Positions 7,812 through 29,758 of a stretch of 39,404 nucleotides of DNA are shown here, in pieces. The notes beneath the pieces were generated by a model. It did no database searches. It saw only the letters and a program-made list of their open reading frames with translations, and had not been told where the DNA came from. How positions within the stretch are numbered: position 1 is the first letter of the stretch; every line of letters starts with the position of its first letter. Source of the DNA: a virus; IMG/VR virus record IMGVR_UViG_3300035698_010429, positions 1 through 39,404 of that record. The stretch is one strand, 5' to 3'. The translations under genes and the position numbers were made by a program.

Positions 7812-9539
7812 TTAGTTGAAGGTGGAGATAACAGGACCACTCACGTAGACCTGCCTTTCTCCGAGTGAGTACTCGATATTGATATCGTCTGTGTTGAATC
7901 GCACTTCTTCCAGGTACGATATGCGATCGATTTCTGCGATGGTGACGTCTTGACCCCAAGTAGTGTTCAGAGCAAGAGTTTCAATTGTAGAGCTGGTCTC
8001 TACGGAGCTAGTGATTTCACGAGTGAAGATCGTACCATCAACTAGACGAACCCAGATGTGGTTGCGAGGCTGCCGGGTTCGGATGAACTGGGTGTAGCCA
8101 ATGTTATCAATCACGAGATCCTGCGAAGCAGAAACCAAGTCCTGGGTGGCAACCAAGTCCTTACCAAACGTCGGCACATAGAAGCTAATCTGCTGCCCAC
8201 CCAGGGAGTGAAGAAGCTGACGTAGGTCCCACACCTGGGCGCGAGTATTTGCTCGAAGCGTGAGGGTAGTTGCTCGCTTGCCGTTCACCCATGGACTGTC
8301 CTGAGATGTCCGGCCAACCTGGCTGTCTAGTACGATGATATTCTGCTGGTACGTTTCGGAGATGGTACTCCCTCGGATTACGTTGCAGTCGTCCAGGAGA
8401 ACCTTGGAGTTGTACGTGTCCTGGCCAGTTAGGTCGCCCAGGTTCGCGTCGTTGTCCAGGATCCGGAACGTGACCGACAGCTCTTGGTCCGCAGAGATGT
8501 ACCGGGTTGCGTTGACGCTCGAGGTGAGATTGCCCGTGCGCAGTGGGGTGACTACCGTGCCCACTCCATATGCCGTGAGGGTTGCATTACTGAGCGTGAT
8601 TGTGTTGGACGTCCGGCTGGCAACCGTCTGTACGTCGAAGGTTTGGGCATCGGTGAAGATCATAACCAGACCACCCACACGGTAGTCCGCGTCTGCCGTG
8701 CTGTCAACGTTGATGGTCATAGCACCCACGGAAGCCGCCACCGTCAGGAACGTAGCCTCGTGCCAGATCGGGACTCCCCAAGTTCGGGACTGCCAATCAA
8801 ACATAAGGGTGTCCAGTCGGTTCTTGTCGAACGTTCCGTCGTCGGCCCTCACCCGCCAGTTGAAGAACTGGCGAGGATTCTTCCTCAGACGGATCCTCTG
8901 CTCCTTCCCAGACTCAGTAGGGAGAATGTCCGTAAGGAAGGACAAGCGTTCCGTGTACGGGATCTCAGGACGAACAGGGAAGAGTACAATCCTGTTCAGG
9001 GTGATCGGCACGTTGATCTGATCGCCGCCGAAGTCGAAGACGAATCCGAGGTCATCGTCCACCGAAGGGTTGCCCGACGTGCTGACCTCCAGCGTCATCG
9101 CGTATCCGGCCAGCGGATTCATCGCGGTGGGTAGGGATGGCTGATTGAGAAGTGTAGTGCCAGCGCCAGCATTGTTCACGAAGCTGGACCAGGTTCTGAA
9201 CTCTCGCCTGTATCCCGAGAAGACCACAAGCGGAGAGGTCTGCGTGCTCAGGATGTTTCCGAAAGCAAAGCTTCTCGGAATGACATGGAAGTTCTCGTAG
9301 AAGTCCTTGCCGATGGATTGATCGTCAAACAGCCCAGCGAACTCGTTGTTCACTACGAAGCTTGTCTTTCCGGGACCAGCAGTAGGTGGCGTGACGAAGT
9401 CGTTCAGGATGTCTCCCTGATTGTCGTCCACAGTCAGAACCGTAGCCACTCGGGAGTATGCCTTTGCAGCTCCGATGTCGTCCCCAGCATAGAAGTTGAG
9501 GTACGTCGACTGACTCGGTCCAGAGACGAAAGTGGCCAC
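7812..9539 (-). CDS. Distal tail / tail-tip structural protein
   Basis: 575 residues, beta-rich and low in cysteine, consistent with a virion protein. The middle has repeated short beta segments (TINVDSTADADYRVGGLVMIF; TITLSNATLTAYGVG) of the type seen in distal tail proteins that connect tube and tip. The C-terminal half contains WDLRQLLHSLGGQQISFYVPTF, a motif I associate with tail proteins next to DUF2163 genes. The start is GTG at 9539, overlapping the previous TAG stop by one base (TAGTG), so it is probably translated by reinitiation. I cannot assign a precise tail position. It most likely lies between the tube and the DUF2163 protein. Confidence 0.65.
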   Translation of the reverse strand: MATFVSGPSQSTYLNFYAGDDIGAAKAYSRVATVLTVDDNQGDILNDFVTPPTAGPGKTSFVVNNEFAGLFDDQSIGKDFYENFHVIPRSFAFGNILSTQTSPLVVFSGYRREFRTWSSFVNNAGAGTTLLNQPSLPTAMNPLAGYAMTLEVSTSGNPSVDDDLGFVFDFGGDQINVPITLNRIVLFPVRPEIPYTERLSFLTDILPTESGKEQRIRLRKNPRQFFNWRVRADDGTFDKNRLDTLMFDWQSRTWGVPIWHEATFLTVAASVGAMTINVDSTADADYRVGGLVMIFTDAQTFDVQTVASRTSNTITLSNATLTAYGVGTVVTPLRTGNLTSSVNATRYISADQELSVTFRILDNDANLGDLTGQDTYNSKVLLDDCNVIRGSTISETYQQNIIVLDSQVGRTSQDSPWVNGKRATTLTLRANTRAQVWDLRQLLHSLGGQQISFYVPTFGKDLVATQDLVSASQDLVIDNIGYTQFIRTRQPRNHIWVRLVDGTIFTREITSSVETSSTIETLALNTTWGQDVTIAEIDRISYLEEVRFNTDDINIEYSLGERQVYVSGPVISTFN

Positions 9540-10558
9540 TAGGCTGTCACCTTCTTGTAGGCAATGCCCGCATAGTACGTTCGGCCAACGATATTGTCCT
9601 CAGTCCTTCGGACCTGAGGAAACAGAACCCAAACGTCGCTGCCAATCGTTACTTCCTGACCCGCTGCGAAGTTGAAGATATCGACTCCGCGGACGTCAGG
9701 GATGTTACCCATCAGGTAGCACCACTGATTTGTGAAATCCCTCGCGAAGATCGTCCAGGGATAGAGAGGGATGTGCCCAGTAGCCACGTCTGATCTATAT
9801 TGGGACATTGGAAAAGCCATGGGACCACCGCGCTGTCCGCCGAAGGTTACACGCTTGGCATTACCTGCCGTGTCGTTGAAGGATGCATTATCCCCAGAGA
9901 CACCACCGGCATGGTGCATCCATTTCTCTCCTGCGAGCTGGTGCGGGAATCCTTCGACGTGGATCGTAGCATTTCTAGGTGCTGTTACCGAAGTCAGTGC
10001 GTTGATGCCGTCGAACGGAGGCACCGCGTTGAGGTCTAGTGCATCGGAAGACGTGAACTCGTCAGCGAAGTGCCCATAGCAGTATTCGCCTCCGGTCCAG
10101 TCGTTGAATTTCTCCATTTCTCCCCATCCGAAGTGGCGGAAGGTTTCCGTAGAGATCTCGACGACGACATGGACATAGGCTGGTCCAGAGTCCTTCTCAA
10201 AAAAGTGGTAGCTGAAGAACGGTCCGTCCCCGATGTCGTTCACGCATCTCTCGTCGTCCAGGTTGGCGTCGCTTCCAAAAGCTGCGTTGTAGCCATTACC
10301 AGAGTCATTTGTATGCGCCCCAGGAAACACTGCGCCAGCGTTACCCAGCGCCTGGTGGATGCTCATGTTATTGGGAGCATTCGCTACCCACTTCACTCCA
10401 ATATGCATGGAGTTTTTGTTCCACTGGGCGAAGCCTTGGGCTGCGACGCTCGCGCCATTATCAAAGTCGTCCTGTGTCCAACCGTTTGCCACTAGAAAAG
10501 TGTCAAGCTTGGTGAGGAGATCTCCGAGGTCGGTTGCTGACCCTGTTTGGTAAGCCAT
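9539..10558 (-). CDS. Virion protein of unknown function, paired with the next upstream gene
   Basis: 339 residues, ATG at 10558 overlapping the previous stop (TAATG). The N-terminus (MAYQTGSATDLGDLLTKLDTFLVANGW) resembles that of many phage tail or decoration proteins: a helix of a short assembly domain, then a large aromatic-rich beta domain (WNKNSMHIGVKW, FFSYHFFEKD, WCYLMGNIPDV). The upstream 546-residue protein has a similar opening (MPFNSGTGITDHIAMLNKLV) and a similar aromatic C-terminal part, so the two are probably distant paralogs. Position after the tape measure and before the tip proteins suggests a tail component or receptor-binding accessory. No enzymatic motif is visible. Confidence 0.55.
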   Translation of the reverse strand: MAYQTGSATDLGDLLTKLDTFLVANGWTQDDFDNGASVAAQGFAQWNKNSMHIGVKWVANAPNNMSIHQALGNAGAVFPGAHTNDSGNGYNAAFGSDANLDDERCVNDIGDGPFFSYHFFEKDSGPAYVHVVVEISTETFRHFGWGEMEKFNDWTGGEYCYGHFADEFTSSDALDLNAVPPFDGINALTSVTAPRNATIHVEGFPHQLAGEKWMHHAGGVSGDNASFNDTAGNAKRVTFGGQRGGPMAFPMSQYRSDVATGHIPLYPWTIFARDFTNQWCYLMGNIPDVRGVDIFNFAAGQEVTIGSDVWVLFPQVRRTEDNIVGRTYYAGIAYKKVTA

Positions 10559-12198
10559 TAGTCTTCGTCCATTGCAAAGTAGGACCAGTTCTGCGTGCGG
10601 TTTCCGTTCTGGAAGATGGTGTAGCGTTTGGTTCCGCGAACGAAACGGTCCTCGCTGATGATAGCGTTGTTCCCTCGGTTGAACCAGTAGACTCCGTCAA
10701 TCTCGCCCTGGATCTTGTGCCCAGTGGTGAGGAAGGTTCCAGTCGCCTGCTCCGTAACAATCGGGGCGACCAACCAGTAGTAGACGTCGCCAGTGCCGGG
10801 TGTGGGCTTGAAGAGAATGTTCTCCGTGCCCGGAACTCCGGTGTTCGGGATGATATCATGCGAACCTCCGGACCAGTCGACGTCGGAGCCTTCGGACGAA
10901 GTACCACTGACTCCGCCGAGCGCAGGTGGGCGGAAGAACGGGAAGATGCCCCACTCGGTTTCAATCAGACGTTGACTACCAGTACTGGAGGCTTCAGCCG
11001 CATGAGATTGCCAGGTACCATCGGTCTTCCGGATGTATCCAGGACCAGACGGATCTGAGGATCCGAAGTAAATCACCTCGACGATGCCGCCCATCAGCTG
11101 GGAGTTGTCAAACCAGATGCGGTCTCTGTCGTTCGTGGTTCCGCAGATCCAGAGAGGGTATGGATACTCGGCGTCCGTAGCTGCCTGGTTGAGGAAGCCC
11201 ATGTAGGCACTCATGTAGTACGTGGTGGTGCCGCTTTCTACCTTGCACACCATGACGATACGCCTGCCCGTATGGTTGATCCACCAGGAGATATCCGGGT
11301 CCGCGTCGTTGTCCTTGAGAACCAGGTACGCTCCACTGTCTGTGCTGGGTAGTGTTCCGTCCGTATCGATCTGTGTGTTATCCACACCGAGCTGCGTCTG
11401 GATCGGCAGGAGCGCGTTGTATCCGGTCGCTCCGAGGAGCTGCCAGTTGTATGCAGTATTCACTCCGCTGGCGATGGAGTACGGTCGGATGATGACGTGG
11501 ATCTCGTCGGCGCCAGCCAGGCCAGAGCCTTCCAGCATGCAGACTTGCTCGTCGTTCACCGCCTTGGTTCCGTTCGTCCAGGTGACCGTCAGCTCGCAGC
11601 CCGTACCCGTTCCTCCGGTGGTTGCTGCATCGTTGGCCGGGACCTCCTCGTAGTTTCCTGCGGTAACAAGGGTGACCGTTGCGACCGGACCCGTACCTCC
11701 GCCTCCGGAGATCGTCGCCACCGTGAACGTGGCTGCGACGTAGGCTGCTCCCTGGACTCCTCCACTGACCGTCAGAGTATCGCTGACAGTGTAACCCGTA
11801 CCACCGGCCCCAATAGCAGCCGAAGCCGCCTGCTGCGTCCTACGGTTGACCGACCAGGATGCAGCCGAGAAAGTGAGGACGAAGGTAGCTCCGGTGCCCG
11901 ACCCCGTCGTGGAAGTCTGGGCATTCGTCAGGACGTCGGTTGGGTCAACCGTGTAGGCTCCGCTTCGGTAGACTCGGATTCCGTCGATCACTCCGGCAGC
12001 TACAGAGGTGACCTCGAGCTGGGCAACGATCGTGGAAGTAGAACCCGTGGCCGTGATTCCGATCACGTCACCGATTGCATGTCCCGTACCACCTCCGGCG
12101 ACTGCGACTGCAGTCAGCGATCGAGACGTGACCACCTCGACGAGCTTGTTCAGCATCGCGATATGGTCTGTAATTCCTGTTCCGCTATTGAAGGGCAT
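10558..12198 (-). CDS. Glycine-rich repeat virion protein
   Basis: 546 residues, ATG at 12198, overlapping the tape-measure stop by 14 bp. After an N-terminal helix there are two tandem glycine-rich units of about 75 residues, each starting GGTGHAIGD or GGTGYTVSD and running through SGAYTVDPT or AGNYEEVPA to GTGATFVLTF or GTGCELTVTW. Such units form beta-strand stacks in phage tail proteins. The C-terminal half is aromatic-rich (YWLVAPIV, VYWFNRGNNAI) and resembles the following gene product. It is likely a tail surface or tip protein, perhaps involved in adsorption. The exact role is unknown. Confidence 0.58.
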   Translation of the reverse strand: MPFNSGTGITDHIAMLNKLVEVVTSRSLTAVAVAGGGTGHAIGDVIGITATGSTSTIVAQLEVTSVAAGVIDGIRVYRSGAYTVDPTDVLTNAQTSTTGSGTGATFVLTFSAASWSVNRRTQQAASAAIGAGGTGYTVSDTLTVSGGVQGAAYVAATFTVATISGGGGTGPVATVTLVTAGNYEEVPANDAATTGGTGTGCELTVTWTNGTKAVNDEQVCMLEGSGLAGADEIHVIIRPYSIASGVNTAYNWQLLGATGYNALLPIQTQLGVDNTQIDTDGTLPSTDSGAYLVLKDNDADPDISWWINHTGRRIVMVCKVESGTTTYYMSAYMGFLNQAATDAEYPYPLWICGTTNDRDRIWFDNSQLMGGIVEVIYFGSSDPSGPGYIRKTDGTWQSHAAEASSTGSQRLIETEWGIFPFFRPPALGGVSGTSSEGSDVDWSGGSHDIIPNTGVPGTENILFKPTPGTGDVYYWLVAPIVTEQATGTFLTTGHKIQGEIDGVYWFNRGNNAIISEDRFVRGTKRYTIFQNGNRTQNWSYFAMDED

Positions 12199-21617: not shown

Positions 21618-22604
21618 CTAGATGATTTCGATAGAGAAACCAGCGGGTGCTGTGATCTGAGTGATCCTCGTCCCAACGTTGCATGCACACTGGATGTCTT
21701 CTTCGGCAACTCCGAAGGATCCAGGGAACAAAGCTTGGTTGCCTTTACCCGAAACAAACATCTCGCCGAACGGACGCTTCTGTCCATGCATGGCCTGGTG
21801 GCTGTCCCGCACGTTATCGCGCAGGCTGGTGTTCCACTCGTTCATCAGGTTGTTGGGATCTAGGTCACCGGATTCGATGGCCTGCTTGTACATCTCGTGG
21901 TTGCCCTGGTGGACGGATCGAAGAGACTCGGTTCGAGCAATGACCTCAGATCGATACTTGATATATCGATCCTGATATCGCTGGACCATCCGATCCATCT
22001 GGGCCTTGGTCAGCGGCTCCCCGTTCTCAAAAGCTCGCTGGACGACTCGGTCGAAACGCTTGTCCCGGAGAGCGCGGTCAAGGACAGACTTGTCCCCATC
22101 CTGGAGCCCACGACGGTAGTTCTCCACAGCCTTCACCTGCTTCTTTGTGAGGCCGATGGAGTCGCGGAAGGCTCGGGCCTGGGCACGCGGGTTGGCGCCG
22201 TTCTCGATACCATTCAGGAGAGCCTCTCTCGTTGCAGCACGCTGCTTCGCGGTGAACTCCCGGATCATCCGCAGCTTCTCCTCGCGCATGACGGCTTGCG
22301 AGAAAGGGTTGGTCGTGTCGAAATCGATGACCACCTGCTGGAGATTGGTGTTCAGGAACTTGGCTGTATCCTTGGCTGCCTCCACCATGGAGTTCACGTA
22401 GAGGTTCCCAATGTTCGGTGCCCGCCGCAGCACCTGGGCAAACGCCTCCTCGAGATTTCCTCGCGAGAGGAGATCCGCGATCACGTCTAGATCCAGGTCG
22501 CTCTTCATCTGGCTGATGAGCAACTGGAAGCCAGCGGAGAAGGCTGGCTCTTGGGCACCTACCAACGCCTCCAGCCTCTCCCAAGGATCTACGATATCAT
22601 CCAT
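21618..22604 (-). CDS. Phage head morphogenesis protein (Mu F-like / SPP1 gp7-like)
   Basis: 328 residues, ATG at 22604 overlapping the previous stop (TGATG). The N-terminal half is helical. The conserved region lies in the C-terminal half: RYIKYRSEVIARTESLRSVHQGN, then NEWNTSLRDNVRDSHQAMHGQ and a final segment with AEEDIQCACNVGTRI. The arginine/threonine-glutamate helix (IARTE) and the R..H..M.G motif followed by a C-x-C pair define this family. Such proteins enter the prohead in few copies with the portal and aid assembly or DNA ejection. The order portal, connectors, F-like, protease is a mild rearrangement since connectors usually follow the coat gene. Confidence 0.85.
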   Translation of the reverse strand: MDDIVDPWERLEALVGAQEPAFSAGFQLLISQMKSDLDLDVIADLLSRGNLEEAFAQVLRRAPNIGNLYVNSMVEAAKDTAKFLNTNLQQVVIDFDTTNPFSQAVMREEKLRMIREFTAKQRAATREALLNGIENGANPRAQARAFRDSIGLTKKQVKAVENYRRGLQDGDKSVLDRALRDKRFDRVVQRAFENGEPLTKAQMDRMVQRYQDRYIKYRSEVIARTESLRSVHQGNHEMYKQAIESGDLDPNNLMNEWNTSLRDNVRDSHQAMHGQKRPFGEMFVSGKGNQALFPGSFGVAEEDIQCACNVGTRITQITAPAGFSIEII

Positions 22605-23203
22605 CAGGCCGGGGAGCCGAGGTCGATGTAGAAGAGGTCGATCCAGCCGTTGAGGGTGATGGATCCCTCCACCGTGACGGAAGACTGGACGTTCAGGAAA
22701 AGCCCACTCGCCACCGATGGACGAGGGTAGTTGGTGACGGTCGATCCGGAGATAACGGCGAAGGCGTTGAAGTCTCGATCCAGGTGGTTTCCTACGCCGT
22801 TGATGTCCACCTTGGCCATGACGTCCGAGTTCGCGAAAGCCGTCAGAGACTGGCTAGACGCAGCAACACTTGACAGGGAGACGTCAATGGCTGCACCCGA
22901 GGTGACGCCCACTCCGTCCTTGACAAAGTCAAGCTCAGAACGAACGCCCAGGGTTATGAATCGGTCGCCCAGGGTGGCCAGCTGGAGTGAGTAGAAGTCC
23001 GTAGCAGCGGGGATCGCCCCGACGTAGTTCGTGATGGTCACTCGCAGGCGCTGGACGGCCAGTGCCGTGTCCTCAATGGTGACCTCACTACCCGCGGTTG
23101 CTGCGGTGAGTGGAGTCGCTCCACTTCCCCCAACGGACTGTCCGTCGAGGCGAAGGTAGTCGGGTGCCAGGATTGGAGAGTTGAATCGTTCGACGTTTCC
23201 CAT
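22604..23203 (-). CDS. Virion protein of unknown function (beta-sandwich-like)
   Basis: 199 residues, ATG at 23203. Alternating beta strands (TIEDTALAVQRLRVTITNYVG; RFITLGVRSELDF; ITLNGWIDLFYIDLG) and the lack of cysteine point to a small virion beta-sandwich. No family is recognised. It is coupled to the F-like gene by a one-base overlap and starts 3 bp after the stop of the 124-residue connector-like protein, so it is made together with head-vertex proteins. A decoration, neck or vertex role is plausible. Confidence 0.5.
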   Translation of the reverse strand: MGNVERFNSPILAPDYLRLDGQSVGGSGATPLTAATAGSEVTIEDTALAVQRLRVTITNYVGAIPAATDFYSLQLATLGDRFITLGVRSELDFVKDGVGVTSGAAIDVSLSSVAASSQSLTAFANSDVMAKVDINGVGNHLDRDFNAFAVISGSTVTNYPRPSVASGLFLNVQSSVTVEGSITLNGWIDLFYIDLGSPA

Positions 23204-23205
23204 AT

Positions 23206-23580
23206 CTATTCTGTCTTGCTGATGCAGCTGTAGAGAGCCAAGGCCGGATCGACCTCGACGCTCAGGATGTTGTAAGTCGTACCAAGGATTGTGATTCGGT
23301 CGCCAGGCTTGGGCACCTGCGAGCTTGCGATTGAGTCTCCCACAAGGGCGATTGAGGCGTCCGCGTCCTCAACTAGAGAGGCGTCTAGCCTATTCCGATC
23401 CAACGTGTCCACGAAGCCTTTGCAGGCATAGGAGACGGACGTCGGTTGCGTTCCTGCTGCCAGGTTGCCCGCAGTACGGGTGCCGGGTGTGACCTTGATG
23501 AGGATGGCACTATTGACACCCGGACCAATGTTATCCCGGATGAGCCCGGAGATGTCAACACCAAAGAGTGGGTTGCCCAT
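23206..23580 (-). CDS. Head closure-like connector protein
   Basis: 124 residues, ATG at 23580 overlapping the previous stop (TAATG). The N-terminus (MGNPLFGVDISGLIRDNIGPGV) is a short helix followed by beta strands (SAILIKVTPGTRTAGN; YACKGFVD; IALVGDSIASSQVPKPGDRITILG) and ends with YNILSVEVDPALALYSC. The small barrel with a PKPGD-I-turn resembles head-tail joining proteins (gpFII/gp16-like stoppers). The neighbouring gene upstream is an adaptor-like protein, the usual partner. The assignment is from fold-like pattern and context, not a diagnostic motif. Confidence 0.6.
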   Translation of the reverse strand: MGNPLFGVDISGLIRDNIGPGVNSAILIKVTPGTRTAGNLAAGTQPTSVSYACKGFVDTLDRNRLDASLVEDADASIALVGDSIASSQVPKPGDRITILGTTYNILSVEVDPALALYSCISKTE

Positions 23581-24182
23581 TAGGCCAGGCCCGCGTCAAG
23601 ACCGAAATCGTTTGCACAGAAAGGGTTGGCCACAGATGTACCCGTGATGGTCGGACCGGACAGGGTAGAGGCGCTCTGCGTGTAGCACTTGCTGTAGTCG
23701 TGGGCGATCTGGGGCAGCCGCACATCGGCACCCGTACCGATCGTGGGCTTGAAGAAAGTCACCGATGCGGAACCCGCCTTGGCCGTCTTGATATTTGAAC
23801 CCTGGGAGCTGGCTGAAGCAGCTGATGCACTGATGAGAACGGATCCCGCCAGAGCAGCTTGGGCATAGAAGATGTCATCGGGAGTCGTCCCGCTGGGGAC
23901 AGAAGTGCCAGTACAGCTGTTCGAGGCATTGTCCCGAGGCCACGACCGAGCCTGCGTAGTCACCGTCAACGTCCCGGTGAAGATCAGAGCTCGATCGATC
24001 CAGTCCGCTGCCGTGACCAGTGCTTGGTCTTTTTCGGTACCAGATGCAGCTGCCCAGGCAGTAGCCTCGGCATCCAATCGACCAGCATAGTAGCTCGTGG
24101 TGTTTGCTCGTGCTTCAGTGAGCACGAGTGCATAGACGCTGAACGTGTCAGTGCCGATTGTGATTGTGTCGATGACTGCCAT
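23580..24182 (-). CDS. Head-tail adaptor (connector ring protein)
   Basis: 200 residues, ATG at 24182. After an N-terminal strand segment (MAVIDTITIGTDTFSVYALV) the helical core shows the pattern used by phage adaptors: ALVTAADWIDRALIFTG, then a QARSWPRDNA-like motif, a loop, and TTPDDIFYAQAALAGSVL (the 'P..i..A...lA' helix). A long small-residue tail follows and ends in VANPFCANDFGL. The W-P-R motif and the helix pair are often annotated as DnaT-like or gp6-like adaptors that dock under the portal. The stop of the beta-helix gene lies just upstream, so the start is well placed. An ORF extension to 24239 is unlikely. Confidence 0.72.
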   Translation of the reverse strand: MAVIDTITIGTDTFSVYALVLTEARANTTSYYAGRLDAEATAWAAASGTEKDQALVTAADWIDRALIFTGTLTVTTQARSWPRDNASNSCTGTSVPSGTTPDDIFYAQAALAGSVLISASAASASSQGSNIKTAKAGSASVTFFKPTIGTGADVRLPQIAHDYSKCYTQSASTLSGPTITGTSVANPFCANDFGLDAGLA

Positions 24183-24183
24183 A

Positions 24184-25677
24184 TCAGTTGACCAGGAGAG
24201 CTTCGATCTCCATTTGAGTGAAGGGACGCTGCTGTCCAATAGCAGTATCGTACTTGAAGAGAGACCAGTCCGGTACTTCTTTCAGGTGAATCGTGGTCGC
24301 ACCATTGAGGGTGCCATTGGAATTGAAATTCCAGATCGTGTCGAGAACCACAGGACCAACGAAGATGTTATCGTACAGGTGGACCCGATCGACGCTGGAG
24401 ATGGACACGGTAGAGCGTTCCGTCTGGGGGCCAGCCGTGAAGCGATTGCCGGAGACGTGGACTTCGTTGTGCTGGTTTCCTGATGGGAGGAACGGGAAGT
24501 TTATAGTTGTATCCTGTCCCGAGATGACCAGAGCCTGGAAACGGAAGTTGTCTGCGGTGTTATCGTAGATGTACGTTCCTGCGCTGGAGACCCAGACCGT
24601 GTAGACGGCACCCCCATCGCCGAACTCATGGTTCGAGCCGTAGTCTACGCAGTAGTTGTTCCGGACCATGAGGCGGTCGGTGGGCAGCGGTTGATACTCC
24701 ACACCTGGACGCTTCTGGAAACCCGTGCGGTTGCCCCCATACATGTCGCATCCCTCGATCAGCGTGCTGGTCTTGCCCGACTTCAGGTACGCAACCGGGT
24801 GCTCCCTGAACTTGACTCCAGGATCACCGGGATTCTCCCCTCGCCACTTGTGGTTGCGGATGACCAGCGTGTCCCAGCCATCGAGGTGCAGGCCGGAAGC
24901 AAACGACGGTTCGCTGTAGCTCATGCCGGGTGCGTTCAGGAACCAGCAGCCATCCAGCTGCACATGGTCCGACCCACCGTTCGCACGGATGACGAAGCTA
25001 TCGGGACTGCCTCGTAGTCCGATGTCGAAGGCCATCACGTCTCCTGTACGCATGACTGCAGTGCCCCCGCTGGAGAAAGTGAGCCGTACACTGGCGGTGT
25101 CCGTCATACCGACAAACGTCGCAGAGGCTTTCTCGTCCCCAGGGTACGTAAGGACATCGGTGCCGTTCTGATTCCACGTGCCGCCCACGCGAGCATAACC
25201 GCTGGAGTCCATCACGCCGAAGATGATATGCTCGTCGCCCGTGGAGCGGGAGCGGCGATACGCATCCCCGTATCCGGTCGTGACGATGCCCAGCCCACGC
25301 TGGCTCTGGAATGCGTTACCCTCAACGATCCAATCGAACTGGTCCGGAGTGGGCTTCTCACGGACGTGCCAGTCCAGGTCCTCGCCGGGTCGTCCTTCGT
25401 TGGGCAGTGGGCTGTTCAGCCATTCAAGATACGCGGCGAGTGCACGCGCAGCTTCGTCGGCCGCAAGCTGGGTAGTGATACGGGCATCCCGAACGACACC
25501 CGCCTGCGTGCGAGCCGCAGCAGTTAGCTCGCTGAGCTCGGCTTCCTTCTGAATCTGAACAGTCTGCGCCTGAGCGTGGGCCTCCATGGCCTCGGCTGCG
25601 ATGATGCGGAGATCTTCGGTTGAAGTGAGGAACGCTGCGGATGCAAGCGACAGGATAGCAATGGTGATGATCTTCAT
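24184..25677 (-). CDS. Secreted/anchored coiled-coil plus parallel beta-helix protein inserted in the head module
   Basis: 497 residues, ATG at 25677 overlapping the portal stop (ATGA). Residues 1-20 form a signal peptide or anchor (MKIITIAILSLASAAFLTST). Residues 22-90 are an alanine-rich amphipathic helix, probably coiled coil. From about 115 a right-handed parallel beta-helix is suggested by repeated short strands with D, N and G turns (IVEGNAFQSQRGLGIV; LVIRNHKWRGENPG; TLIEGCDMYGGNRTG; LMVRNNYCVDYG; VHVSGNRFTAG; VHLYDNIFVG). This fold is used by polysaccharide lyases, tail spikes and surface adhesins. A gene of this type between portal and adaptor is not part of the normal head set. It may be a depolymerase, exported modifier or host-interaction factor. 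Catalytic residues cannot be assigned. Confidence 0.7.
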   Translation of the reverse strand: MKIITIAILSLASAAFLTSTEDLRIIAAEAMEAHAQAQTVQIQKEAELSELTAAARTQAGVVRDARITTQLAADEAARALAAYLEWLNSPLPNEGRPGEDLDWHVREKPTPDQFDWIVEGNAFQSQRGLGIVTTGYGDAYRRSRSTGDEHIIFGVMDSSGYARVGGTWNQNGTDVLTYPGDEKASATFVGMTDTASVRLTFSSGGTAVMRTGDVMAFDIGLRGSPDSFVIRANGGSDHVQLDGCWFLNAPGMSYSEPSFASGLHLDGWDTLVIRNHKWRGENPGDPGVKFREHPVAYLKSGKTSTLIEGCDMYGGNRTGFQKRPGVEYQPLPTDRLMVRNNYCVDYGSNHEFGDGGAVYTVWVSSAGTYIYDNTADNFRFQALVISGQDTTINFPFLPSGNQHNEVHVSGNRFTAGPQTERSTVSISSVDRVHLYDNIFVGPVVLDTIWNFNSNGTLNGATTIHLKEVPDWSLFKYDTAIGQQRPFTQMEIEALLVN

Positions 25678-27113
25678 TCGGATTCTTCAGGCTGCATGGC
25701 AGCCGCCTCTTCTTCCGGGGTGGTCGGTGCGTTCTGGTTCATGAGCGCCTGCTGGGCAAGCGCCAAATCCAGCTCGTCTACCTCGGGGGCATCCGGCAGA
25801 CCCAGGATTCCACGAAGGATATTGATCGCCTCGTCGTCCGGAGCAAGGCCAGCTGCTGCGAGATCCTTGAGCGCCGTGGTCACCTCGGTGATGTCGCGAT
25901 ACTGGATCTTCTCGACGGAGAAGGTGGGCATGAGATCTTCGTCCCAGCCATTGAGTGCCCACAGAGGCTTGAGGAAATCCTTCTCGTAGGTCTCCTTGAG
26001 TTCCTTCAGGCAGCTGTCCACGATAAGGCCGAACTGCTGAGTCTTGTCCCTGGAGAGCGCATAGGATCCACCCGAGTCGCCGCCCAGGAGCAACTGCTCC
26101 ACACCGAGGACACGAGCGATCTCTCGATTGAGCCTCTCGATAGCAGCCGCAACCTCAGCTGCGGTGCCAGGGCTTCCTTGGAGAAGCTCTACGTCCCACT
26201 GGCGAACGTTGCTCGGGGTAGAGCGTTCGTCGCTGGTCTGGTAGGTCATGCTGTCCAGCAGCATCCCCATCTCCGGAGTCTTGTTGTGCGAGGAGATGAA
26301 GTCAAGCATGGGCTGCTTGAGTGCGTTCGCTTGGACCTCGGTGAGCTGGCCAGCTGTGACCATCTGCTCGAGCTGAGAGAACGGGCCGCGAGCAACCGGA
26401 ATTCCGCGCAGGTCCGTCTCGAATCCCCAGGCCTCGAGGAGCTCGTATCGCTGCAGCTTCTTGGCTGCCTTGATTACGTGCCGGAACATACCCAAACCTT
26501 CGGGGCTGTCGTTGATCGTGTCGTCGACCAGGTACAAACACTTGCCCCTGGGCAGGTAGATCTCCTGCTGGGTCTGGGGGTTGGTCTGAACGAAGCCCAA
26601 GACCGTACCGGACACGTCGACGTCCCAGCGTTCGATGGTCATTTGGGCACGAGGCTCGATGTCCATGAACGCGATGATGCCATCCTCGTTGCGCTTGGCG
26701 GTCCACTCCTGGACGCTGAATCCCCACATGCAGTACATGGCTCCACGCCGCACTACCCTGTGCCACGGGGTGGTCATGCCGTCCATGATCTTCTTCACCT
26801 TCTCGGCAACCTCCTCGGCTGCCGGCGAGTCGTCTGCAGGCTCAACTGTCCACTTGGCCTTGGCGACCAGGTTCGCGAAGTAGCGAACGCCTGCTGCAAC
26901 GATGCTGACGTTGGCCAGCATCTCCGAGTAGGTCCGATATCGTTCCGATCCCTGGAGGCTTTGATCCTTCTCCTTCTGGAGGACATAGCCACCATAGATC
27001 GCGGTGCCAGGTGCACCCACCGACTGAAAGGGAGAGGCCTTTGCAGGATTGCTCCCCCTGACGCTCGGGTCCAGGACCTCAGCCTTGCTGAATTGTTTGC
27101 GTTTTCTACTCAT
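25674..27113 (-). CDS. Portal protein (DUF935 / Mu gp29-like)
   Basis: 479 residues, ATG at 27113 overlapping the terminase stop (TGATG). Portal features in order: a clip/stem N-terminal region with YRTYSEMLANVSIVAAGVRYF, the wing with RRGAMYCMWGFSVQEW and FMDIEPRAQMTIERWDVD, the helical LGMFRHVIKAAKKLQRYELLEAWGFETDLRG, and LNREIARVLGVEQLLLGG with GGSYALSRDKTQQFG, a signature of DUF935 portals. The acidic C-terminus (TTPEEEAAAMQPEESE) is probably disordered. The dodecameric ring carries DNA through the prohead vertex and binds the terminase encoded just upstream. Confidence 0.9.
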   Translation of the reverse strand: MSRKRKQFSKAEVLDPSVRGSNPAKASPFQSVGAPGTAIYGGYVLQKEKDQSLQGSERYRTYSEMLANVSIVAAGVRYFANLVAKAKWTVEPADDSPAAEEVAEKVKKIMDGMTTPWHRVVRRGAMYCMWGFSVQEWTAKRNEDGIIAFMDIEPRAQMTIERWDVDVSGTVLGFVQTNPQTQQEIYLPRGKCLYLVDDTINDSPEGLGMFRHVIKAAKKLQRYELLEAWGFETDLRGIPVARGPFSQLEQMVTAGQLTEVQANALKQPMLDFISSHNKTPEMGMLLDSMTYQTSDERSTPSNVRQWDVELLQGSPGTAAEVAAAIERLNREIARVLGVEQLLLGGDSGGSYALSRDKTQQFGLIVDSCLKELKETYEKDFLKPLWALNGWDEDLMPTFSVEKIQYRDITEVTTALKDLAAAGLAPDDEAINILRGILGLPDAPEVDELDLALAQQALMNQNAPTTPEEEAAAMQPEESE

Positions 27114-28708
27114 CAGTATTGTACCATCCGCCCAGGAGTGAGAGCAAGTTTCGGTCCAGCGTTCTGCAAGATGTAATCGTATGCGCGTGATGCTGCGTCA
27201 ACTTGGTCCTTGTACTCCGAGTTCGGAAACAGTCCGGCTTCGGCGAGGAAGGCATCATTCCATGCCCCACGAACGAGGAATACGTTACCGGCTTCGGTCT
27301 GAGCCGCCAAGGGAATTGCGCGATTCTCCTTAGATCCTGTTTCGGGAGAGAAGCGACAGTTGAATCCCTGAAGCAGAGCAGCGAATGCTCGGATCTGAGA
27401 TTTGCCTGCCTGACCAGGATCCTGGGGAATGGAGATGGGGATCCCGACTCCGTCCCGATGGGCACATGCCAGGATGGATTGCTCAACCCCACCCGCCTCT
27501 TTTCGGTATCGGTCAACGTCCGAGATCACGATTCGCCCATCACTCGTTCGGCCCACCTTGACGCCTACCGTCCAGGCAGCGTTCTGCTTGTCCGTGGCAG
27601 CGAGGTCATAGCCTCTGCACCACTGGATACAATGGGGCTCGCTGTCCAGGAAGATGAAATCGTCCTTGTTGAACATTCCCCCTCCACGCGGAACGGGTCG
27701 CTGCTGGAGCTGGGCAGCCTCAGCATAGCTGCCTCCCTCAGAGCGGAACTGCAGCTTGAGGTCGCGAACGGTCGCGTCGTTGAAACGCTCGGGCCATGCG
27801 AGCTCGCCCTCCACGGACCTGGGGTCCTGGCAGTACATGAGCTGGCCATCGTCGTCAGGGACGAAGTACGGGAGAGGCTCACCGTCCTCCTTGATGCGCC
27901 TCATCCGTGTCGGCGCACCGAACGGGGAGGCTACCGTCGTCCAGCTCTTGTGCTTCGGCTCAGCCTCCATGGGGATGACCAGGTGGGTCCAGTTCTGCTC
28001 GGCTGCCAGCTTGTTGATGATGAGGCCAGAGATGTCCTGCTCGTGCAGTCGCTGCATGATGATCACGTAGACAGGACGTGCCTGGTCTATGAATCGCGTC
28101 GGAGTAGTCTCCGAGAACCAGAAGCGAGCCGTCGCACGCTCAGTATTGCTCTCTGCCAAACCCACACTATGAGGGTCGTCAATGATGAAACGATGACCAC
28201 GACGACCAGTAAGACCAGCACCAACAGAAGCTGCGAAACGCCAACCACGTCCAGTGTTTGCATAGTGTTCCTTTCCATCCTGGTCGGCCTTGAACTCCAT
28301 CGGCCAATGACTCTGGTACCATTCGCTCTTGAGGAGATCTCGGCACAGCATCATATCCCGGATAGGCAGTCCCTTCTCGTAGGATGCTGAGATGTACTTG
28401 TAGTGAGCCTGTCCCTTGGGACCCCATTCCCAGGCAGGCCAGAAGACGTTGACCAGGAGACTCTTGGCGAAACCAGGTGGAACGTTGATCAGGACTCGAG
28501 TAATCTCACCTCGGGTGACTGCCTCGAGGGTGGCACAGATCCTCTCCATGGACCAGCCGCCGATCATCTCCTCACCTGGGTGCAGGTTGGGCCACGCTGC
28601 AGTTACGAAGGCCATAAGGCTCTTCTCACAGCGGAGCTTCTCCATCTCCTTGAGCGCTCGCTTCGGATGGGCCAAAGCAGCCTTGATGATGTCCTCTTCC
28701 GATGTCAA
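27113..28708 (-). CDS. terL: Terminase large subunit
   Basis: 531 residues. ATPase: a variant Walker A VPPGFAKS (about 76-83) and Walker B FIIDDPH (about 175), followed by the coupling motif region PVYVIIMQRLHEQDISG. Nuclease: RNase H-like acidic residues in GYDLAATDKQNA, in ISIPQDPGQAGKSQ and in YKDQVDAASRAY at the C-terminus. The enzyme cuts concatemeric DNA and pumps it into the prohead. It begins with TTG at 28708, since the preceding stop TGA overlaps this TTG (TTGA) and the first in-frame ATG is 21 residues further in. The adjacent gene order, small subunit before and portal after, is standard. Confidence 0.92.
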   Translation of the reverse strand: MTSEEDIIKAALAHPKRALKEMEKLRCEKSLMAFVTAAWPNLHPGEEMIGGWSMERICATLEAVTRGEITRVLINVPPGFAKSLLVNVFWPAWEWGPKGQAHYKYISASYEKGLPIRDMMLCRDLLKSEWYQSHWPMEFKADQDGKEHYANTGRGWRFAASVGAGLTGRRGHRFIIDDPHSVGLAESNTERATARFWFSETTPTRFIDQARPVYVIIMQRLHEQDISGLIINKLAAEQNWTHLVIPMEAEPKHKSWTTVASPFGAPTRMRRIKEDGEPLPYFVPDDDGQLMYCQDPRSVEGELAWPERFNDATVRDLKLQFRSEGGSYAEAAQLQQRPVPRGGGMFNKDDFIFLDSEPHCIQWCRGYDLAATDKQNAAWTVGVKVGRTSDGRIVISDVDRYRKEAGGVEQSILACAHRDGVGIPISIPQDPGQAGKSQIRAFAALLQGFNCRFSPETGSKENRAIPLAAQTEAGNVFLVRGAWNDAFLAEAGLFPNSEYKDQVDAASRAYDYILQNAGPKLALTPGRMVQY

Positions 28709-28950
28709 AAGATCTCGTCCTCGTGCTGGAAGCCCAAGGAGGTTAGCTCGAACTGAGCTACGATCCTCCCTTCCAGGGAAGGATGAAGCTCGACACGTGG
28801 CCCAGCGTACTCGCGGAAACGCTTGTGGGCGGCACGCATGGAGGAGCGTAGGGTCTTACGTCCCTCCCCATCGTACCATCCGTCCTGGAGGAGAGCCAGC
28901 TCGGCGAGGCGTTCGGTGATGTACATGGGTGCCTTGTACCTGCGCTTCAA
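28705..28950 (-). CDS. Small protein between terminase genes (DGE-motif type)
   Basis: 81 residues if TTG at 28950 is used (it overlaps the previous stop as TTGA and has GAGGGCG upstream), or 73 residues from ATG 28926. The sequence ALLQDGWYDGEGRKTLRSSM followed later by GPRVELHPSLEGRIVAQFEL recalls a widespread small family with a 'GW.DGEG...P....GGI..E' pattern whose function is not known to me. It is cotranslated with the terminase genes. It could be a packaging accessory or simply a passenger. Confidence 0.6.
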   Translation of the reverse strand: MKRRYKAPMYITERLAELALLQDGWYDGEGRKTLRSSMRAAHKRFREYAGPRVELHPSLEGRIVAQFELTSLGFQHEDEIF

Positions 28951-29153
28951 ACGCGATCGCCCTCGCCCAACTCCTCAGCGAGCATGTCCTCGATCAACGC
29001 ATGCATCCGGCGCAGCTGACCCTTCTTGAGTCGGCCGTCGTACCGGATGATGGTGAAGGACTCAGAAGGGGTGTGGCCGCTTGCCATTTCCCAACCCGTC
29101 TCCAAAAGACCCAGGCTTGCTCGCAATAGATGGAGCATTTCTTTGCTGTTCAT
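28947..29153 (-). CDS. Small helical protein of the terminase region
   Basis: 68 residues, ATG at 29153. Predicted helices: MNSKEMLHLLRASLGLLETGWEM, then a short strand FTIIRYDG and a basic helix KKGQLRRMHALIEDMLAEELG. No known family. The first 34 codons overlap the zinc-finger gene in another frame. Its stop overlaps the next gene's TTG (TTGA). It is most likely real because codon usage and charge pattern look natural and the coupling is tight, but no homolog is recognised. Confidence 0.5.
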   Translation of the reverse strand: MNSKEMLHLLRASLGLLETGWEMASGHTPSESFTIIRYDGRLKKGQLRRMHALIEDMLAEELGEGDRV

Positions 29154-29283
29154 CGTCGTCTCGATCGAAGAGGTAGTGGTCGATAGCACAGTCGGGGGAG
29201 CAGTGCTCCAGCCCATCGTACAGCGGAGCAGCCTCGAGACTGATCTTCTGCTTGCAGAAAGGGCATGTCCTACTCGGCTTCAT
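29062..29283 (-). CDS. Small zinc-ribbon peptide next to the small terminase
   Basis: 73 residues, ATG at 29283 overlapping the end of the small terminase gene by 14 bp. A CPFC pair (residues 7-10) and a CSPDCAIDH segment (about 28-36) form a C-x2-C / C-x3-C-x3-H arrangement that can bind zinc, a layout seen in phage HNH-less zinc fingers and in host-takeover factors. The C-terminus is a glycine/lysine-rich tail. It overlaps the following 68-residue gene by 92 bp in a different frame. The GGA at -7 is a possible ribosome binding site. The metal motif makes a real gene likely, but the length of the tail is uncertain. Confidence 0.55.
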   Translation of the reverse strand: MKPSRTCPFCKQKISLEAAPLYDGLEHCSPDCAIDHYLFDRDDDEQQRNAPSIASKPGSFGDGLGNGKRPHPF

Positions 29284-29758
29284 CTTCCAGGAGTTGCTTG
29301 AGAAGAGCCTGCTGGCGATCGCTGAGCTTCCCGATGCCCAGGTCACCTTCATGCTGTACGGAACCCGAGAGCTCGACCTTGTTGGTTAGGCCCTGGCGAA
29401 CTCGGGCGGAAATGATCCGCGAGTAGAGCTCAGCCATCTTGTCTGAGTACACAGTCTTCCTTCCGACGATGCCCGTTCCCTCGTTGTTCCCGAGGTTCCC
29501 GTAGACGTCCTCCTCAATCCCGTCTATGCCCCTTCGCTTGAGTTGGCGGAGTAGCTCCTCGTCTGCCTCCTCGATAGCGTCAGCCCAGCGAGCAGCGAAC
29601 TCAGGGTTGCGGCCGCGCTCCTCGTAGAAGGCGGATTGGCAGCCAAGCTTGCTGTGGGGGCTCGCATGCTTGGCAGCCAGGATGACGAGCCCATGCTTAC
29701 TGAGGTGGTCAAGGAATGCTTCCATCCTTGCAGGGGACATTCTGCGTTGTTCTACCAT
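29270..29758 (-). CDS. terS: Terminase small subunit
   Basis: 162 residues, ATG at 29758 with GAGG 9-12 bases upstream, first gene of the virion operon. The N-terminal part is a helix-turn-helix DNA-recognition domain (GLVILAAKHASPHSKLGCQSAF, then YEERGRNPEFAARWADAIEE), the arrangement seen in the HTH-type small terminases. The middle is an oligomerising coil (ELLRQLKRRGIDGIEEDVYG) and the C-terminal helix (SDRQQALLKQLLEDEAE) would contact the large subunit. It recognises the packaging site, which in many phages lies in or near this gene. Confidence 0.82.
   Translation of the reverse strand: MVEQRRMSPARMEAFLDHLSKHGLVILAAKHASPHSKLGCQSAFYEERGRNPEFAARWADAIEEADEELLRQLKRRGIDGIEEDVYGNLGNNEGTGIVGRKTVYSDKMAELYSRIISARVRQGLTNKVELSGSVQHEGDLGIGKLSDRQQALLKQLLEDEAE

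Follow-up and report, generated by a model that had tools for sequence, protein, structure and literature searches.

The junction between the portal gene and the head-tail adaptor gene (Ad1) is a variable cargo slot in RDJL/YuA-like phages. In the genome analysed here this slot holds an orphan gene, whose product we read, at about even chances, as an exported glycan-active or glycan-binding protein that would be made late in infection. What looks new is the location. Core head genes are commonly regarded as an invariant block; in about half of the relatives the portal-Ad1 junction is swappable, and some of what it carries is apparently exported rather than structural. Below, "the window" denotes the whole stretch of DNA that was analysed, namely positions 1 to 39,404 (39,404 nucleotides) of IMG/VR virus record IMGVR_UViG_3300035698_010429.

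The orphan gene in the head operon

A sequence-only reading of the window had placed a gene at 24184-25677, overlapping the portal stop by ATGA and adjoining the adaptor gene, and this placement is correct. On the minus strand, a complete reading frame runs from the ATG at 25677 to the TGA at 24184, and the plus strand across this interval is interrupted by stops and not open. The features discussed here are as follows.

27113..28708, minus: terminase large subunit (family match)
25674..27113, minus: portal protein, Mu/DUF935 type (phrog_113, E=1e-54; Portal_Mu, E=4e-28)
24184..25677, minus: orphan gene, 497 aa; signal or anchor, helix and probable right-handed beta-helix
25618..25677, minus: Sec signal-like segment MKIITIAILSLASAAFLTST, aa 1-20 (direct sequence, hydropathy, rule-based scan)
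25417..25620, minus: predicted long Ala-rich helix, aa 20-87 (AF2 helix, pLDDT about 40-70)
24358..25080, minus: probable right-handed beta-helix, aa 200-440 (coil signatures, dN/dS, fold matches)
23580..24182, minus: head-tail adaptor Ad1 (phrog_477, E=6e-20)
23206..23580, minus: head closure Hc1 (family match)

The order on the minus strand is terminase large subunit, portal, orphan gene, Ad1, Hc1, a 199 aa protein and a Mu F-like morphogenesis protein. The ATGA is common to the portal stop and the start of the orphan gene, and Ad1 most likely starts at the ATG at 24182, 2 nt beyond the orphan-gene stop. Since GC3 of the orphan gene (0.71) lies within the range of the adjoining genes (0.63-0.75), with no deviating composition, and a search for promoter-like sites within 23000-29500 returned none, the gene reads as a member of the head operon. 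A short hairpin-forming inverted repeat, GGCTGCATGGCAGCC, lies immediately upstream of the orphan-gene start at 25690-25704 and is possibly relevant to coupled translation; no RNA family was found in the orphan-gene region.

The gene is real and under purifying selection. IMG/VR contains one homologue, with 72% identity, on an independent contig (L001/L002/L017), in the same slot and with the same neighbours; none was found in 50,697 phage records, in plasmids or in GTDB genomes, and the protein has no Pfam, PHROG, NCBIfam or PDB sequence match with a meaningful E-value. Against this homologue, dN/dS is 0.21 overall; the flanking conserved head genes give 0.03-0.15 and the 199 aa protein 0.40. 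Along the orphan protein the ratio is 0.36 in aa 1-20 and 0.34 in aa 21-95, and it drops to 0.07 in aa 266-350, which is the best-conserved stretch (91% identity), the N-terminus being the least conserved part. From these values we conclude that the gene is maintained and that the beta-rich core is its conserved part. The difference between core and N-terminus suggests that the probable beta-helix is the business end and that the N-terminus needs only to keep its character.

The 199 aa protein itself (22604-23203, minus strand), between Hc1 and the Mu F-like gene, evolves fast (57% identity to its L017 counterpart). Its N-terminal motif F-N-x-P-I-L-A-P is seen again in L090/L092 slot proteins and, in a looser form, in L050.

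The portal-Ad1 slot in related phages

The closest isolates by portal are Roseobacter phage RDJL Phi 1 and its relatives (54% and lower); some of the relatives suggest that the window phage is probably marine. The sequence-only reading had proposed a comparison of relatives for presence or absence of the gene. In the isolates RDJL Phi 1, S0112, Tedan, KPP23 and ZS04, the adaptor gene or the gene in the corresponding position comes straight after the portal gene, and the orphan gene is absent; an essential, non-secreted portal accessory present in all relatives, the finding that the sequence-only reading had said would refute it, was rejected on this ground. In Rhizobium phage RHph_Y5A, the portal-adaptor slot holds a 71 aa "putative head fiber".

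For a wider survey, portal relatives were collected from IMG/VR and GTDB, Ad1 was located by profile, and most duplicate contigs were removed. Among the complete portal-Ad1 slots in RDJL/YuA-like phages, 49 are filled and 44 are empty; note that many of the surveyed slots lie on metagenome contigs, and the ends and assembly of these contigs were taken as they stand. The largest insert is 7 kb, and 46 of the 119 plus-strand slot ORFs in the first set are without a relative in another slot. The gene had been called unexpected for a head vertex, a judgement to be softened because this junction is commonly variable in the group. Phage morons are optional genes inserted between conserved structural genes, and the orphan gene is moron-like in being optional cargo at a junction that receives unrelated genes. 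Unlike a moron, it has no promoter-like site, has a GC3 like that of its neighbours and is coupled in translation to the portal.

Cargo in the relatives is mostly fibre-like. The recognisable cases include the GP4 gp80 and gp77 fibre families, YadA head repeats, DUF7265, and PHROG virion structural or tail proteins, and many fibre-bearing relatives have a gp77/BppU-like fibre adaptor just before Ad1. Other cargo was also seen. A sulfotransferase-family gene lies in the slot of two near-identical loci (L038:6206-7009 and L097:12249-13052, an IMG/VR contig and a Desulfocapsa MAG), and an N6/N4 DNA methylase gene lies within another slot (L105:10407-11639).

Sec signal-like N-terminus, helix and probable beta-helix

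The N-terminus of the orphan protein, MKIITIAILSLASA, reads as a Sec signal or anchor, as had been claimed. It has K2, a hydrophobic core of 9-10 residues and small residues (A-S-A or S-A-A) near positions 12-15, all kept in the 72% homologue, and hydropathy peaks near the N-terminus at 2.47 over 15 aa. In a rule-based scan, the charged n-region, the hydrophobic core and the small residues at -3/-1 expected of a Sec signal were all found, and cleavage after A14 or A15 would be possible. The coiled coil that had also been claimed fares less well: a long Ala-rich helix is predicted for aa 20-87, and its amphipathicity is weak, so that the evidence favours a long helix and makes a coiled coil no more than plausible.

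For the C-terminal part, a right-handed beta-helix at about aa 200-440 is likely, not proven. The sign looked for was a series of repeated coils of about 22-35 aa with a stacked strand/turn signature, and such a series is present, as judged by a partly post hoc pattern. Five coil signatures (VQLDGCWF, LVIRNHKW, LMVRNNYC, VHVSGNRF and VHLYDNIF) were observed against 0.53 expected, and 0 of 5000 shuffles did as well, for a pattern that was partly tuned on this sequence; the same pattern scores 0-2 in each of ten other window proteins. AF2 models of the protein alone and with its one homologue were both poor (pLDDT about 36), and Foldseek with these low-confidence models gave no match at E<=0.001. 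The structures nearest to the second model, a solenoid of low confidence, are a chain of an Sf6 entry, beta-helix lyases, epimerases and tailspikes (Z 9-11), and LRR proteins align with the same model at Z 8-9. For the beta-helix claimed by the sequence-only reading, support comes from the coil signatures.

These model-based results, together with the lack of a match to any beta-helix Pfam family, leave some room for another fold, such as a different beta solenoid or an LRR-like structure, with a function unrelated to glycans. We consider this very improbable, since the signature I-x-I-x-N-N-x-F recurs with a spacing of 26-38 residues and since a slot protein of the same layout in another phage (L005; signal-like start, helix, Pro-rich linker, beta-helix) matches Pfam Beta_helix at E=0.0027, which is below the curated cut-off.

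The probable fold would be shared with beta-helix polysaccharide lyases, epimerases and tailspikes (RbmB, AlgE, PL6, Sf6 and LKA1; weak matches, Z about 10). The orphan protein differs from these in having no sequence family match, no identified catalytic triad or other catalytic motif, and no tailspike head-binding domain; for the conserved N-terminal virion-binding domain of tailspikes there is no domain match, and the N-terminus is the part that varies most. Any depolymerase activity of the protein is putative.

Proposed export or attachment to the virion

In the preferred reading, the orphan gene would be a cargo of the variable slot, translated late and coupled to the portal. The Sec signal, either cleaved or retained as an inner-membrane anchor, would export the protein from the cytoplasm; its helix would then serve as a stalk, with the beta-helix turned to the periplasm or the cell surface, and the beta-helix might bind or cut envelope or exopolymer glycan. 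The effect could be to open the way for progeny to be released, or else to strip receptors from already infected cells.

Export is favoured first because unrelated Sec-signal proteins recur in the same slot. One rule was applied to every ORF of 80 aa or more, in the slot and downstream alike, and signal-like ORFs were found in 10/197 slot cases against 6/599 downstream (odds ratio 5.3, Fisher p=0.0013); because signal-bearing loci share ancestry, this p value is indicative only and is not an independent-sample probability. The ten slot ORFs are the window protein, its homologue, and those of L005, L103, L130, L041, L048, L116 (two) and L077, where the L077 entry is a doubtful alternative start and L042, a duplicate of L041, was excluded from the count. 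Two of them are sulfatases with 32% identity to each other: L103:11275-12591 (PF00884, E=1e-38; modification motif C-S-P-T-R) and L130:4920-6245 (PF00884, E=5e-26; lipobox-like LVAAC; C-A-N-T-R). They share with the orphan protein the slot, the signal and a likely extracellular glycan target, and differ from it in belonging to an unrelated family with a recognisable sulfatase domain. A lipoprotein-like ORF of L041/L042 also has its start inside the portal stop.

The smaller signal-bearing products bring in a further explanation, namely an inner-membrane-anchored protein that acts on the infected cell, either in superinfection exclusion or as a spanin-like lysis aid, with a beta-helix that binds and does not catalyse. 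A layout of signal-anchor, long helix and periplasmic domain would suit this role, and the slot does hold a free-standing 84 aa signal-helix-Pro-rich protein (L048) and a small lipoprotein (L041). Nevertheless, we regard it as improbable, because neither known spanins nor small exclusion lipoproteins resemble a beta-helix of 400 aa and the slot sulfatases point to glycan chemistry. The N-terminal module of the L048 protein shows no significant similarity to that of the orphan protein.

A stronger contender, which we hold to be possible but well short of an even chance, is a neck or collar appendage of the virion, in which the N-terminal hydrophobic helix and a helical stalk would sit on the portal or Ad1 and the beta-helix tips would bind host glycan. 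Such an appendage would be in keeping with the mostly fibre-like cargo of the relatives, and the coupling of translation to the portal fits a virion part equally well. There is also a precedent in the neck passage structure (collar-whisker) of lactococcal 936 and P335 phages, which resembles the orphan protein in being optional, in its place at the head-tail connector region, and in having a helical stalk followed by a C-terminal beta-helix. In 936 phages, neck passage proteins have beta-helix C-terminal ends in two of seven groups (D and E), and the neck passage protein of TP901-1 is expressed together with the capsid and believed to be attached to the portal (PMC6669499). However, the neck passage structure is conserved over its N-terminal 180 aa or so, a region with a BppU-like domain, and lacks an export signal (PMC6669499), whereas the orphan protein starts with about 20 hydrophobic residues followed by the predicted helix, and no family match to a BppU-like domain of about 180 aa was found at its N-terminus.

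Two further slot proteins also count against export. The first 84 aa of the L005 protein have 33% identity to the orphan protein and the remainder is dissimilar, as is usual where an anchor carries an exchanged tip. Clear homology of these modules was considered and then downgraded by class-preserving shuffles (p about 0.004; 0.05 for the helix alone), according to which common descent is possible, not established. In L116, a signal-like start heads a 777 aa repeat protein (L116:11311-13644) that otherwise resembles the slot fibres; this protein has a CPDPxP motif, also present in L094:5625-6095.

Against attachment to the virion, and in favour of export, is the conservation pattern: between close homologues, the N-terminus is the least and the probable beta-helix the most conserved part, unlike what is seen in a virion anchor. 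In addition, the core of the N-terminus looks like a signal and not like a docking domain, the window slot has no gp77-like or BppU-like adaptor, and unrelated enzymes that are apparently exported occupy the same slot elsewhere. The sequence-only reading had offered a secreted protein and a whisker-type virion protein as alternatives; these are indeed the two best readings, with export favoured, although the data distinguish between them only in part.

More tentatively, and with confidence well short of even, the export reading can be extended to the group: RDJL/YuA-like phages may keep a dedicated slot for Sec-exported glycan-active enzymes (sulfatases and beta-helix proteins) that is coupled to head assembly, so that the late operon would remodel host surface polysaccharide just before release. 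If export of part of the slot cargo is confirmed, it would explain the presence of beta-helix and sulfatase genes amid head genes, and it would mark a genome site at which to seek phage-made extracellular enzymes that alter the polysaccharides of (probably often marine) hosts during infection.

Elsewhere in the window, two adjacent minus-strand genes (9539-12198; 339 and 546 aa) both match phrog_687, annotated as a structural protein, and the minus-strand region 266-1938 encodes homologues of gp33 and gp34 of cyanophage Pam3.
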